Shown: one piece after another, positions 408-46,329 of the stretch
Layout of the letters: each line of letters begins with the position of its first letter
Numbering within the stretch: the first letter of the stretch is position 1
Made by a program: the position numbers and the translations under genes
From: Bacteroidota bacterium
GTDB lineage: Bacteria > Bacteroidota > Bacteroidia > UKL13-3
Assembly: GCA_027482225.1 (NCBI GenBank)
Contig: JAIXWD010000006.1
Coordinates: forward strand, 1 to 64,000
Reading direction: 5' to 3'
Length of the DNA stretch: 64,000 nt
The notes under the pieces: model-generated
The model's input: only the letters and a program-made list of their open reading frames with translations
Told to the model about the DNA's origin: nothing
Databases searched by the model: none

Positions 408-512
408 AAACCCGGCCTAGGGATGGAAGTAGTTACCTTGTAACTCGCACAGCCCGACTATGAAGTAACTTGGGCAGCCATTACGCTGGGTTTACTTCAT
501 AGGAAGCCCCAA
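408..512. ncRNA. Candidate structured RNA in a convergent intergenic gap
   Basis: The gap 161-560 has no gene. Its first part (161-300) carries short decayed repeat-like pieces such as CTCGATATG. The second part folds strongly: AGTTAC (431-436) pairs with GTAACT (440-445) across a three-base loop; CTATGAAGTAA (458-468) pairs perfectly with TTACTTCATAG (492-502), an 11-bp stem; inside it CAGC (475-478) pairs with GCTG (485-488) over a six-base loop. This stretch is also much richer in G and C than its surroundings. It could be a small RNA (a 6S-like RNA of this phylum is one thought), a decayed mobile-element end, or a cis element. Strand is undecided, because the stems read on either strand and I see no clear TAnnTTTG box. 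Confidence 0.4.
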
Positions 513-560: not shown

Positions 561-3482
561 TTACCTCACTACCAATTTTTGTTTAAAAATTGCGTCTCCC
601 ATTTCTGCAAAAATGAGGTATAAGCCATGTGGTAATTGCGTGCAATTAAAATAGGTTTCTTGATTGGAAGCAATTGTAGCTGTTACTAATTTTTCACCTG
701 TTGAATGATAAAGGTGCCAAGTTATCGGTTGGTTAATTTTATTTTTTAACGTAAAGCTTGTGGTCACGGGGTTAGGATAAACCTGAATAAAATGGTCGTT
801 CAATGCATAGTTATTTATTGCGGTTTGTTTGCTAATGGTTACTTGAAACTGCATGGTATCTCCAATACAATTTATGGTGTCGGTTTCTATTGCTTTAATC
901 ATCCCAGTAGTTATTTCATTTGGCCACTCAATAGTAACACTATCGGCTTGAGTAGTTAAAAGGGTACCGTTTGTAACTACCCAATTAAAGTGAGATGTTG
1001 GACTTGCATTTTTTATGCGATAGGTATTTATAGATGAAGTTAATACTTCTTTTGCGCCTGTAATTGTAGTTGCAGATGGGTAATTGATACGAACAAAAAC
1101 TGCTGCTGAGGTATCGCATCTGCCTCCCGAAATGACGAGGCGTTTGTACCAATAGGTTACTGTTTCTGAGGGTGGTGAATAGGTTAAGTTGGTATTTACA
1201 CCTGGTGCAATAGTGTAACCGCTGATTGCCGATTTTTTAGAGCGAAACCATAGGTAACTATATACGCCCGAACCCCCATTAGGTAATGTCCCGATTAGCG
1301 TATCAGGAACCTGATTTTTACAAATAGTTTGGGAGTTATAAACTACATTGGCTTGAATGGGTGGTAAGCTATTAGCAATTTTACAAATTACATTTCCGTT
1401 ACCACTATAAGTAAAATAAATATTTCCTTGATGATCGCAGGCTACTGAATGAGGGAAAAATACAGATGACTTTAATGCTGAATCGAGTTTGTATTCTAAA
1501 TCATTTTGTCCGTTTCCAGCAACAGTACTTATCTTTTGTGTTAGTGCATCAATTCTTCTAATACGATTATTCCAAGCATCAGAAAAATATAAGTTACCTG
1601 AGGCATCCGTTGCCAAACCTCTTACATTATTTAATAAGGCATATTTTGCGCTATCACCATCACCAGAATAACCAGATTGATTATTTAAATTACCGGCTAT
1701 GGTATTGATAAGACCTGTTTTTGCGTCAATTTTTCTGATGCGGTGCATATTGGCTAAATAAATATTTCCTTCTGCATCCACTGTCATTGGTCCGCCTAGA
1801 TCAAGTGCTGTTTGTAAAGCAGGTGCATTTTCTGTTGTTTCCCCAAATGTTCCTTTTCCGGCTACTGTACTTATAATGTATGTGTTTGTGTTGATTTTTC
1901 TGATCCTGTTATTATTCACATCGCATACATAAATATTGCCCATTAGATCAGCACCTAAATTACCTGTATGGTAAAAAAGTGCTTTTAGGGCACTATCCCC
2001 ATCGCCCGAAAAACCAACTTGATTAAATGGATATCCTTTACCTGCATAATGCGTGATGATACCTGTTTGGTTGTTTATTTTCTTTATTCTGCCCAATTCA
2101 GATAAGAAAACATGACCATTGATATCTGTAGTAACACCACCAATATCATTCCATAAATACGTGTATGGTCCTGGAACGTTATCAAGTAAAGAATCTATTC
2201 TAACCGTATACCCTTTTCCGGCTATGGTTATCAGTTTTTTATCTGCACCATTTACCATACGTATTCTGTTGTTGTATGAATCAGAAAAAATTAGATTACC
2301 ATAACCATCAAACCTTAGGTGTTGCGGAGTTGAAATTAACGATTGGTTGGCTAATCCACTATCTCCATCAAAACTTGAATAACCGTTACCTGCAATCGTT
2401 GAAATGATTTTGCTGTTACTATCTACTTTTCGTAAAAGCGCATTGCCTGCATCAACAATGAGTAAGTTTCCTAAATTATCTATTTTAACATCTGTAGGAT
2501 AAAGAAGTTTGGCCTGAGTAGCAGGAATACTCTCTGCTGTATTTTGAAGTGGAAAGGAGCCAGCATAAGTATTTATAATAGTAGTTAGTATGTTGATTTT
2601 TCTGATGCGGCTATTGCCACCATCGCAAACAAATAATTGGCCATGCATATCTAACGCAATACCATTTAATCCACTAAATACGGCCCTAAAAGCAGAGTCG
2701 TTTTCGCCTGCATAACCGTCCATACCTGTGCCTGCAAACGAATAAATTTTACCTGTACTTAAATTTACACGTTTAATTTTATCGTGTCCAGCATCTGCTA
2801 TATAAAGGGTATTTGTTTTACTGTCTAAAGCCAACCCTTTGGGTTCATACAAGCCATCTGTTACGTCTAAATCGCCAAAATCTTCAGCTATCCCATTTCC
2901 TGCAACTCTAGAAATAAGTCCTGTTGTACTACTTATTTTTCTAACCTGGTTGTTCCCCATATCACTAAAATAAATATTGCCTAAACTATCTAGTATAATA
3001 GGTCCTGGAGAACTTAATTTTGCATTAATCGCTAAAACAGTACTATCTGTATAGCCCACTACCCCTTTACCGGCAATGGTTTGTATAACGCCAGTGTTGG
3101 CATCAATTTTCCTTATTCGGTGGTTTTCTGTATCAGATAGGTAAAGATTACCCGAAGAGTCTAAAGCAATAAAACACATGCTTCCAATGCGTGCTTGTGT
3201 TGCTGGGCCATCATCTCCTGTATATCCTTTTTTTTGCGTTCCTGCAAAAGTTGTAATAATGCCATTGCTAATTTTTCTAATTCTAAAATCATAAGAATCG
3301 TAAACATAAATATCTCCATTTTTATGGCAAGCTACTGTGTTTGGATTTACCGAAGTTGACTTAGCGTTACGATAGTCTCCTTTACTTCCTCCAGCATATA
3401 TTTCTATTAGTTGTGCATTTGCTTGTTGGGATAAACAAATGATACCAAGTAATGTATAAACAAAATGGAATGTTATTTTCAT
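561..3482 (-). CDS. Secreted NHL-repeat propeller protein with T9SS sorting tail
   Basis: A protein of 973 residues if started at the ATG at 3482, which begins a clean signal peptide (MKITFHFVYTLLGIICLSQQ, then ANAQ). A longer reading from 3521 would put 13 extra residues before the signal peptide and is unlikely. About twelve repeats ending in variants of NRIRKIN/D-x-x-TG, each with a GNxYxxD-type strand and a GDGGPA-like or TxAGxG turn, fill residues 25 to about 690; twelve blades would make two six-bladed NHL propellers. Next comes an Ig/PKD-like region, then YPNPVTTSFTLK and a C-terminal sorting domain ending KLVVR. NHL propellers usually bind proteins or glycans; the ligand here is unknown. 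It is a likely SprA-dependent surface or secreted protein. A TATCTTCG box lies six bases before the start. Confidence 0.85.
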   Translation of the reverse strand: MKITFHFVYTLLGIICLSQQANAQLIEIYAGGSKGDYRNAKSTSVNPNTVACHKNGDIYVYDSYDFRIRKISNGIITTFAGTQKKGYTGDDGPATQARIGSMCFIALDSSGNLYLSDTENHRIRKIDANTGVIQTIAGKGVVGYTDSTVLAINAKLSSPGPIILDSLGNIYFSDMGNNQVRKISSTTGLISRVAGNGIAEDFGDLDVTDGLYEPKGLALDSKTNTLYIADAGHDKIKRVNLSTGKIYSFAGTGMDGYAGENDSAFRAVFSGLNGIALDMHGQLFVCDGGNSRIRKINILTTIINTYAGSFPLQNTAESIPATQAKLLYPTDVKIDNLGNLLIVDAGNALLRKVDSNSKIISTIAGNGYSSFDGDSGLANQSLISTPQHLRFDGYGNLIFSDSYNNRIRMVNGADKKLITIAGKGYTVRIDSLLDNVPGPYTYLWNDIGGVTTDINGHVFLSELGRIKKINNQTGIITHYAGKGYPFNQVGFSGDGDSALKALFYHTGNLGADLMGNIYVCDVNNNRIRKINTNTYIISTVAGKGTFGETTENAPALQTALDLGGPMTVDAEGNIYLANMHRIRKIDAKTGLINTIAGNLNNQSGYSGDGDSAKYALLNNVRGLATDASGNLYFSDAWNNRIRRIDALTQKISTVAGNGQNDLEYKLDSALKSSVFFPHSVACDHQGNIYFTYSGNGNVICKIANSLPPIQANVVYNSQTICKNQVPDTLIGTLPNGGSGVYSYLWFRSKKSAISGYTIAPGVNTNLTYSPPSETVTYWYKRLVISGGRCDTSAAVFVRINYPSATTITGAKEVLTSSINTYRIKNASPTSHFNWVVTNGTLLTTQADSVTIEWPNEITTGMIKAIETDTINCIGDTMQFQVTISKQTAINNYALNDHFIQVYPNPVTTSFTLKNKINQPITWHLYHSTGEKLVTATIASNQETYFNCTQLPHGLYLIFAEMGDAIFKQKLVVR

Positions 3483-3663
3483 GTGATTCGAAGATAAGTT
3501 TATTTGATAAGTTGAACACAAATTCCTAAAAATTGAGCTAACCTTACCTGTTGGTCTTTTTATGTGTTGTGCACTATACCCCCAAGTACCGAATCCTTTT
3601 GGGATGGTGATTTAATTGTAGTAAAAAAACTATTTTCGCCCAAAATTCTTTTATAGAGTAATT

Positions 3664-5349
3664 ATGGCAAACAGACGAGAATTACGCGCAGCAACAGGTA
3701 ATACATTAAGCTGCAAAGGATGGGTACAAGAAGCGGCCTTGCGCATGTTACACAATAATTTAGATCCTGAAGTGGCTGAAAGACCTGAGGATTTGGTAGT
3801 GTATGGCGGTATTGGTAAAGCGGCCCGCAACTGGGAAAGTTTTGATTTAATTGTAAAGGCTTTACAAGATTTAGAGGAAGACGAAACATTATTGGTACAA
3901 AGTGGTAAACCGGTGGGTATTTTACCTACACACAAGGATGCACCACGTGTTATTATATCGAACAGTATGTTGGTGCCTAAGTGGGCCAATTGGGAAACTT
4001 TCCACGAGTTGGATAAAAAGGGTTTGATGATGTACGGCCAAATGACTGCAGGTAGCTGGATTTACATTGGTTCGCAGGGTATTGTGCAAGGTACTTATGA
4101 AACGTTTGCCGAGGCTGCTCGTCAGCATTTTGGCGGTACGCTTAAAGGTACTTTATCTGTTACTGCCGGTTTGGGTGGTATGGGTGGCGCACAACCTTTG
4201 GCGGTTACCATGTGTGATGGTGTTTGCCTTGCTGCCGAAATGGTAGAATGGCGTATTAAAAAACGTATTGAAACACGTTACTTAGATGTAATGAGCCGTG
4301 ATATTGACCAGGCGATTGATATGGCTTTGAAAGCGAAGGCTGAGGGCAGGCGTTTATCTATTGGTGTATTATGTAATGTAATTGATTTATTGGAGCGTTT
4401 AATTGAACGTAACATTACGCCTGATTTGTTAACGGATCAAACATCGGCACACGACCCATTGAATGGTTATTACCCTGAAGGCATAGCTGAAGAGGTGGCA
4501 GATAGAATGCGTAAAACGGAGCCTGGAAAGTATGTAGAAAAATCGTTGGATACCATGGCACACCATGTAAAGTTGATGATTGAATTGCAAAAGCGTGGTG
4601 CTATTACGTTTGATTACGGTAACAATTTACGAGGACAAGCAAAAGACCAGCGCCATGTAGAAAATGCATTTGCGTTTCCGGGTTTTGTTCCTGCATATAT
4701 TCGTCCGTTGTTTTGCGAAGGTAAAGGTCCTTTCCGTTGGGTAGCACTAAGTGGCGACCCTAATGATATTTATGTAACCGACCAAGTGATGAAAGAATTG
4801 TTTCCTGAAAACACTTCGTTGCACCGTTGGTTAGATATGGCTAAAGAGCGCATTGCTTTCCAAGGGTTACCTGCACGTATTTGCTGGATTGGTCAGGGCG
4901 ATAGAGAAAAAGCTGCGTTAGCATTTAATGAATTGGTGCGCACTGGTAAAGTAAAAGGTCCGATTGTAATTGGCCGCGACCATTTAGATACTGGTTCGGT
5001 AGCATCTCCTAACCGAGAAACAGAAGCGATGAAAGATGGTAGTGATGCCGTGGCCGATTGGCCAATATTAAATTCGTTGATTAATACTGCGGGTGGTGCA
5101 AGTTGGGTATCTATACACCACGGTGGTGGAGTAGGTATGGGTTACAGTATACATGCAGGTATGGTAATAGTGGCCGATGGTACAGAAGATGCCGCACGCA
5201 GGTTAAAACGTGTGTTGCACAACGATCCAGCAATGGGTGTAATTAGGCATGCTGATGCAGGTTATGATATTGCGATTGATACTGCGCGTAAACACAGATT
5301 AGATATTAAAGAGCGTTTGAAAGATAAACCTGAAAAATCAGCGTTTTAA
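3664..5349 (+). CDS. hutU: Urocanate hydratase (urocanase)
   Basis: Converts urocanate to 4-imidazolone-5-propionate in histidine breakdown, in the cytoplasm, using tightly bound NAD+. The 561 residues match the family length. Recognisable blocks are the N-terminal [12 protein letters not shown], the NAD-binding [12 protein letters not shown], the [14 protein letters not shown] loop, and [14 protein letters not shown], whose Cys407 is the position of the family's active-site cysteine. [19 protein letters not shown] near the end is also typical. The ATG at 3664 is the natural start. No other hut gene is in the window, so histidine catabolism is not encoded as a cluster here. A strong bidirectional terminator follows. 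Identification is secure. Confidence 0.97.
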
Positions 5350-46194: not shown

Positions 46195-46294
46195 AAAAAG
46201 GGCAAGCCAAAGTATCGCACCGCTACAACTACTTACCCTTGCTATATTCCTATCCTGGGGGATTCAGTAGGAGCTGGTCGTACCCGACTTACCC
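46195..46294 (-). ncRNA. ffs: Signal recognition particle RNA, bacterial small type
   Basis: On the minus strand the ends pair (GGGTAAGTC at 46294-46286 with GGCTTGCCC at 46208-46200, with G-U pairs). The tip of the hairpin reads CCCCCAGGATAGGAATATAG followed by CAAGGG, which contains the SRP domain IV signature CAGG...GGAA...AGCA bound by Ffh. GTTGTAGCGGTGCGAT on the 3' side is a block I associate with SRP RNA of this phylum. A T-run (46199-46194) follows the closing stem as a terminator. A TACTTTTG box with TTG 19 bases further upstream places the transcription start at about 46294. This RNA guides membrane protein targeting with Ffh and FtsY. Confidence 0.88.
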
Positions 46295-46299
46295 AATTG

Positions 46300-46329
46300 C
46301 AAAAGTATGTTTTAAAACTATTTCAGCAA
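46300..46329 (-). promoter_or_regulatory. SRP RNA promoter (TTG-N19-TACTTTTG)
   Basis: Minus strand TTG at 46329-46327 and TACTTTTG at 46307-46300, five bases before the predicted first G of the RNA. Both spacing and sequence match the other promoters in the window. Confidence 0.78.

Follow-up and report, generated by a model that had tools for sequence, protein, structure and literature searches.

A diverged Flavo-1-type three-way-junction element in a convergent intergenic gap of a Bacteroidota genome

Introduction

What is the short, GC-rich, stem-bearing segment that lies between two convergent protein genes near the start of contig JAIXWD010000006.1 of a Bacteroidota bacterium (Bacteroidia, UKL13-3; assembly GCA_027482225.1)? 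We analyzed the first 64,000 nt of this contig, referred to here as the window, and all coordinates are those of its forward strand. A sequence-only reading of positions 408 to 512 had described a strongly folded element that serves as leader to neither neighbor and could be a small RNA (6S-like or new) or the end of a decayed mobile element. Other genomes (G), contigs (C), and loci (L) are cited by our own codes.

Results

The GC content of 408 to 512 is 50.5%, versus 22% at 300 to 407 and 33% at 513 to 620, and equally GC-rich 105-bp stretches make up only 0.43% of all such stretches in the window, in agreement with the earlier description of a GC-richer element in AT-rich surroundings. The left neighbor is a gene fragment on the + strand with a T9SS-like C terminus, ending at about 106; the right neighbor, at 561 to 3521 on the − strand, encodes an NHL-repeat protein with a T9SS sorting domain and separates the element from hutU, the gene for urocanate hydratase (3664 to 5349, +). 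Both genes converge on the element, as had been noted, and the segment is structured, conserved, noncoding, and a leader of neither.

The whole element, as delimited on the + strand by two covariance models described below (R1 and R2), spans 414 to 510, and all of the stems reported earlier are present within 408 to 512. The closing helix P1 joins GGCCT (414 to 418) to AAGCC (504 to 508), with one pair lost to a C.A at 417/505. The P2 arm (420 to 455), defined by the minimum-energy fold of 414 to 510 and by covariation in the family, consists of GGG/CCC (420 to 422/453 to 455), UG/CA (424 to 425/450 to 451), G429/C446, and a tip hairpin seen in the fold (hp1; 431 to 445), which has 6 bp (431 to 436/440 to 445) around a CTT loop; this short form of hp1 is common to the window copy and its orthologues in G004 and G002:C10. 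P3 (458 to 502) is a perfect 11-bp stem (458 to 468/492 to 502) that encloses a 4-bp hairpin, CAGC/GCTG (475 to 478/485 to 488), and most other copies have a hairpin of different sequence at this place.

The earlier wording “strongly folded” does not hold for energy. Compared with shuffled sequences of equal dinucleotide content, the segment has z-scores of only −0.7 to −1.5 (for 400 to 520, −1.5 on the + strand and −1.2 on the − strand; for 414 to 510, −1.2 on either strand), so that the folding energy of the window element alone is within chance and mildly unusual at most. When 414 to 510 is cut at the ends defined by the family, however, its unconstrained minimum-energy RNA fold is the three-way junction of the family, and because this is so and the helices covary across copies, we judge the fold to be real by comparison among copies.

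No Rfam family matched the segment at gathering strength. Below that level, RF01705 (Flavo-1) matched the window copy with 17.7 bits (E of 0.16 in a 161-base stretch), short of the cutoff of 42, and it likewise scored the copies at syntenic positions in G005 and G004 under 42 (31.0 and 24.3 bits), whereas other copies of the genus reached up to 63.1 bits. A blastn search over 97 relatives found partial copies within the genus, including two in G004. Covariance model R1 was based on an alignment (A1) of 33 of 44 copies; the window copy (L001) was excluded, and L035, L039, L040, L059, L062, L070 to L073, and L093 were omitted for an unclear 3′ end or as near-duplicates. R1 matches the window at 414 to 509 (+) with 42.3 bits (E of 1.3e-7). 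Since A1 contains copies from the genus, including two orthologues of the window copy, a second and stricter model, R2, was trained on 22 copies, all from other genera, and it matches 414 to 510 with 28.4 bits (E of 6e-4). Each match is the sole one in the 64 kb, and the tool itself describes E-values of such models as rough. The R2 training set includes copies accepted by Rfam (e.g., L080, L081, and L075), which ties the window copy to them by homology, and 420 to 455 keeps GGGAUGGAAG and ACAGCCCG of the P2 core with the covarying G-C step. On these comparisons, the window element is a diverged member of Flavo-1 (RF01705), i.e., an extended variant of the known family. A blastn search of plasmid records gave just one 27-nt match (E of 0.4) and one of phage records gave none; an 18-base motif scan of genome contigs returned one Thiomicrospira match, which we took as chance.

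The likeness to Flavo-1 lies in the P2 arm, whose internal loops and conserved core (GAU.G.AG ... A.AG) agree, in the multicopy occurrence in Bacteroidota, and in the Rfam scores of close relatives of the window copy, which are above or near the cutoff. The differences are that the base of P2 is GGG/CCC in the window copy but CC-G/C-GG in the Rfam form, that the tip is short with a 3-base loop, and that closing P1 and the P3 hairpin are both missing from the Rfam consensus, which has P2 only and unpaired ends. In three genomes with an Rfam-like form, the P3 hairpin is absent by inspection.

Copies of the family fold into a three-way junction of P1 (5 bp, closing), a long P2 arm (GGG/CCC, a two-pair step, 3x3 internal loops, and a tip hairpin), and the P3 hairpin, in an element of about 55 to 145 nt, and base conservation drops within some 4 bases of its ends. 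Among 97 distinct copies, in an alignment fitted to the structure, 90.4% of 1,430 cells are paired, 14 of 15 pairs show changes on both sides, and the covariation score is 0.339, compared to 0.099 for shuffled and a maximum of 0.088 for slid versions. A cleaner, genus-free MAFFT set has 242 of 242 cells paired with 5 of 11 pairs covarying, although its structure, too, was named after such copies had been seen. One P2 pair is A-U in 19, G-C in 7, and U-A in 7 copies (33 of 33 paired), and a further P2 pair in the three Rfam-like-form genomes is C-G in 20, U-A in 23, G-C in 3, A-U in 3, and U.G in 1 (n = 50).

P1 takes the forms GCGTG/CACGC (24 copies), GGCTT/AAGCC (23), GCGTT/AACGC (19), and GCATG/CATGC (8), plus 17 rarer forms, and is fully paired in 87 and paired at 4 of 5 positions in 10 of the 97 copies (mean of 4.90 pairs, versus 3.84 with the 5′ sides permuted); in a count of 85 copies, the 29 without a 3′ anchor under a strict pattern were scored for P1 alone. 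A P3 stem with 4 or more pairs is found in 62 of the 84 copies (among the 97) that had an anchor, compared to 28 of 73 after the region was shuffled; family-wide, 107 copies have such a stem and 15 are missing the region. The alignments indicate that P1, lower P2, and the P3 hairpin are kept through compensatory changes, and the expectation that covarying stems would be found was borne out.

Outside hp1, G.U outnumbers A.C by only 27 to 23 in 153 distinct copies, versus 55 to 5 in the small SRP RNA (69 to 5 over all pairs; 4 of the 30 loci were excluded for a truncated flank). A further 50 copies of the Rfam-like form have few non-Watson-Crick cells in the core, 4 of them G.U and 0 A.C. Within hp1, A.C exceeds G.U by 106 to 6 in the 153-copy set and by 49 to 1 in the 50-copy set, an excess that we attribute to a single conserved C.A or bulged C common to the copies rather than to independent changes. 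The window itself encodes a small SRP RNA at 46196 to 46301 (−; Bacteroidales_small_SRP, 95.5 bits). A module, CGAAGCGAGTTCGGGATTTTCAACCC, occurs within the P2 arm or at the junction at G000:C17:84846, G002:C53/C90, and G004:C35/C17/C210, and it looks like a small repeat inserted at the CCC of a larger one.

At an E-value of ≤0.05, R1 finds a copy in 32 of 64 genomes of the taxonomic family, with 0 to 24 copies per genome (24 in G007, 16 in G034, 14 in G023, and 12 in G011) and wide differences between close relatives. The window's own genome has 6 copies at an E-value of ≤1, 5 of them at ≤0.05. Class-wide, 60 of 247 genomes are above the Rfam cutoff, with a maximum of at least 18 copies in a genome, and it was exceeded in 0 of 14 control genomes. 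The housekeeping small SRP RNA is single-copy in 38 of 39 genomes, the other having two.

G007 has four 75-nt copies that are 97 to 99% identical in the pairs listed, and the flanks of those pairs are identical at a proportion of 0.47 to 0.56, compared to a background mean of 0.52; G034, G023, G011, and G010 have pairs of 85 to 98% identity in unlike flanks. Because near-identical copies have flanks as unlike as the background, the comparison shows recent copy spread in these relatives. It is not seen in the window's own genome, whose 6 copies include no near-identical pair. Many pairs are alike in the 5′ part only or the 3′ part only, and the copies look like mosaics for this reason.

The repeated unit is the element itself, with 60 to 150 nt of upstream sequence added in some pairs; it is thus not the end of a larger transposon. 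Among the pairs listed for G007, G034, and G010, ten full-length pairs have homology over more than 25 nt upstream, and none has it over more than 25 nt downstream; in some pairs of these genomes, the common sequence upstream of P1 is matched by a sharp stop at the 3′ end. A fixed 3′ end with a variable 5′ end as a general rule is refuted by the three Rfam-like-form genomes, where homology beyond the ends extends upstream in 0 and downstream in 2 of 94 pairs.

When 87 copies were compared to simple ORF calls of at least 80 amino acids, 74 were intergenic and 13 lay within a called ORF. Among the 67 with both neighbors called, 21 are antisense to both, 20 are convergent, 14 are sense, and 12 are divergent. 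The copies have no strand preference relative to genes, and the convergent gap seen in the window is not a feature of the family (47 of 67 copies lie elsewhere). The motif TANNTTTG, which we take to be the Bacteroidota −7 box, is found within 70 nt of 3 of 154 copies (upstream, + strand) and 4 of 157 (other strand), with no excess over the 3 to 12 occurrences in 130 to 157 control stretches. T-runs after the element are likewise not in excess (22 of 157, versus 19 of 157 and 16 of 156 in controls).

hutU is present in 8 of 9 genomes of the genus, and R1 places an element immediately 5′ of the gene in G002, G004, G005, and G007 but finds none upstream at the hutU loci of G008, G001, and G003; the flanks in G008 are too different for any scar to be read. 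The window's own hutU locus, as taken for this comparison, does not reach 414. The left flank of the window copy (181 to 316, +) is homologous to that of its orthologues in G004 and G005 (71 to 73% identity). Flank and locus comparison thus shows the window copy to be an orthologue of the copy just upstream of hutU in relatives, inherited from that site, and here the expected same locus type was found. At that site, the tip hairpins vary between species while the core is constant.

Among the loci compared, only the window has the NHL gene in the interval from element to hutU, and this gene is apparently a later arrival. A second repeat family (motif CTTCTCGATAY) is found beside the element, at 181 to 316 and 258 to 268 in the window and nine times in G007, within a stretch of about 1 kb preceding the hutU element (L317, 3485 to 4420). 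Retron-type reverse transcriptases of 338 to 368 amino acids are encoded upstream of the orthologous, hutU-adjacent element in G005 (L036:201-1307) and G004 (L033:36-1052); their best PADLOC matches are RT XI, XII, and I-C, minus the fused effector part. The window's own genome has no reverse transcriptase match.

Discussion

The reading that we favor, and hold to be fairly probable, is that the window segment represents a slightly decayed resident copy of a nonautonomous, structured, dispersed repeat of Bacteroidota, of the Flavo-1 type. Of the two origins first proposed, small RNA or decayed mobile element, the latter is nearest, with a small structured repeat in place of a transposon end. 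There are many dispersed copies, long inverted ends are absent, the 5-bp P1 being the sole terminal pairing, and no target duplication was seen by eye. The window copy is probably passive, without a role for its neighbors or host. Copies would spread as a folded single strand of DNA or RNA recognized by a trans-acting enzyme, and foldability may be selected at that spreading step, accompanied by template switching or conversion between copies, so that helices would stay paired while hairpin tips change quickly. We suggest more tentatively, as a possibility somewhat short of even, that Flavo-1 as a whole is a Bacteroidota-wide mobile three-way-junction family, moved as folded single strands with tips swapped, and that the Rfam “RNA” is its P2 arm.

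Strong covariation and conserved internal-loop bases would be equally compatible with a functional RNA, and Rfam types the family as “Gene; sRNA,” implying that the copies are transcribed as small RNAs or as processed elements in longer transcripts. The lack of A.C cells in the core of the Rfam-like form and the retention of the hutU-upstream copy in several species point the same way. We nevertheless regard this explanation as rather unlikely, given a promoter motif enriched on neither strand, the wide copy-number variation among close relatives, and, in the family set outside hp1, G.U cells that are no commoner than A.C, unlike the SRP RNA. The excerpted text of an F. psychrophilum transcriptome (PMC9723704) has Flavo-1 matches sense or antisense to transcribed regions and many outside them, without consistency of strand or transcript. 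Flavo-1 appears in a table in the excerpted original description by Weinberg et al. 2010 (PMC2864571), and the portion of a 2022 review that covers it (PMC9029176) places it under the most abundant small RNAs with no function given; none of these three excerpts states a mobile-repeat status for Flavo-1, and the part of PMC12306157 retrieved by a search on dispersed or palindromic repeats in the group does not name it. Even less credible is a 6S RNA or another listed family, which we consider next to excluded. It had been raised from the look of the stems, no 6S-Flavo or other 6S model was among the Rfam matches at gathering strength or at an E-value of ≤10, and the element is multicopy, unlike 6S RNA, of which a genome has one or few copies.

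Action at the DNA level is another conceivable but improbable account, drawn by analogy with REP/BIME repeats, which bind gyrase or IHF: the junction, extruded or on single-stranded DNA, would be bound by a host protein, and copies would be spread by ordinary recombination. Dispersed intergenic copies with no strand preference, and helices that stay paired, with G.U not in excess relative to A.C across the family set, would suit such a site, whereas no protein partner is known and the DNA fold of the window copy is weak (−14.7 kcal/mol; z of −1.65). A role as common transcription terminator of the convergent genes fits the gap in the window and the 20 of 67 copies in convergent gaps, but it is very improbable in view of the ordinary frequency of T-runs, the different gene contexts of orthologous copies, and the 12-bp terminator-like hairpin that the left gene has of its own outside the element (130 to 157, +).

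Among known mobile structures, the Flavo-1-type repeat resembles REP/BIME elements (RAYT, Y1 transposases) in being short, dispersed, intergenic, structured, and without genes of its own, but it differs in forming a three-way junction of 55 to 145 nt and in that copy-richest G007 has no Y1_Tnp match. Like MITEs, it is small, noncoding, and dispersed, with near-identical copies in unrelated flanks; unlike them, it has 5-bp paired ends (P1) and no long terminal inverted repeat. Integron attC sites are known by an AAC/GTT core triplet, its orientation, and arrays. The similarities are a kept structure with variable tips, a similar length range, and many copies starting with GCGTTAGGG, but AAC/GTT is not invariant here (GGCTT/AAGCC and GCATG/CATGC are common), the GTT arm is inversely oriented, and the copies are single and dispersed rather than in arrays. 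Core triplet and orientation rule out attC identity.

Neither of two candidate movers was retained. Y1 transposases (REP/RAYT) do not track copy number, since PF01797 has no match at an E-value of ≤1e-5 in G007 (24 copies), G023 (14 copies), G010, G005, or G027. Reverse transcriptases, although encoded beside the orthologues in G004 and G005, are missing from several copy-rich genomes, with no PF00078 match at an E-value of ≤1e-5 in G000, G011, G023, G010, or G018.

For the window alone, the result is a modest one: an ordinary gap with a worn repeat copy. Should the family prove to be a mobile repeat, many of the “sRNA genes” annotated in Bacteroidota would be repeat copies, the Rfam family model would miss two of three helices, and a mobilization system that reads a nucleic-acid junction would await discovery.
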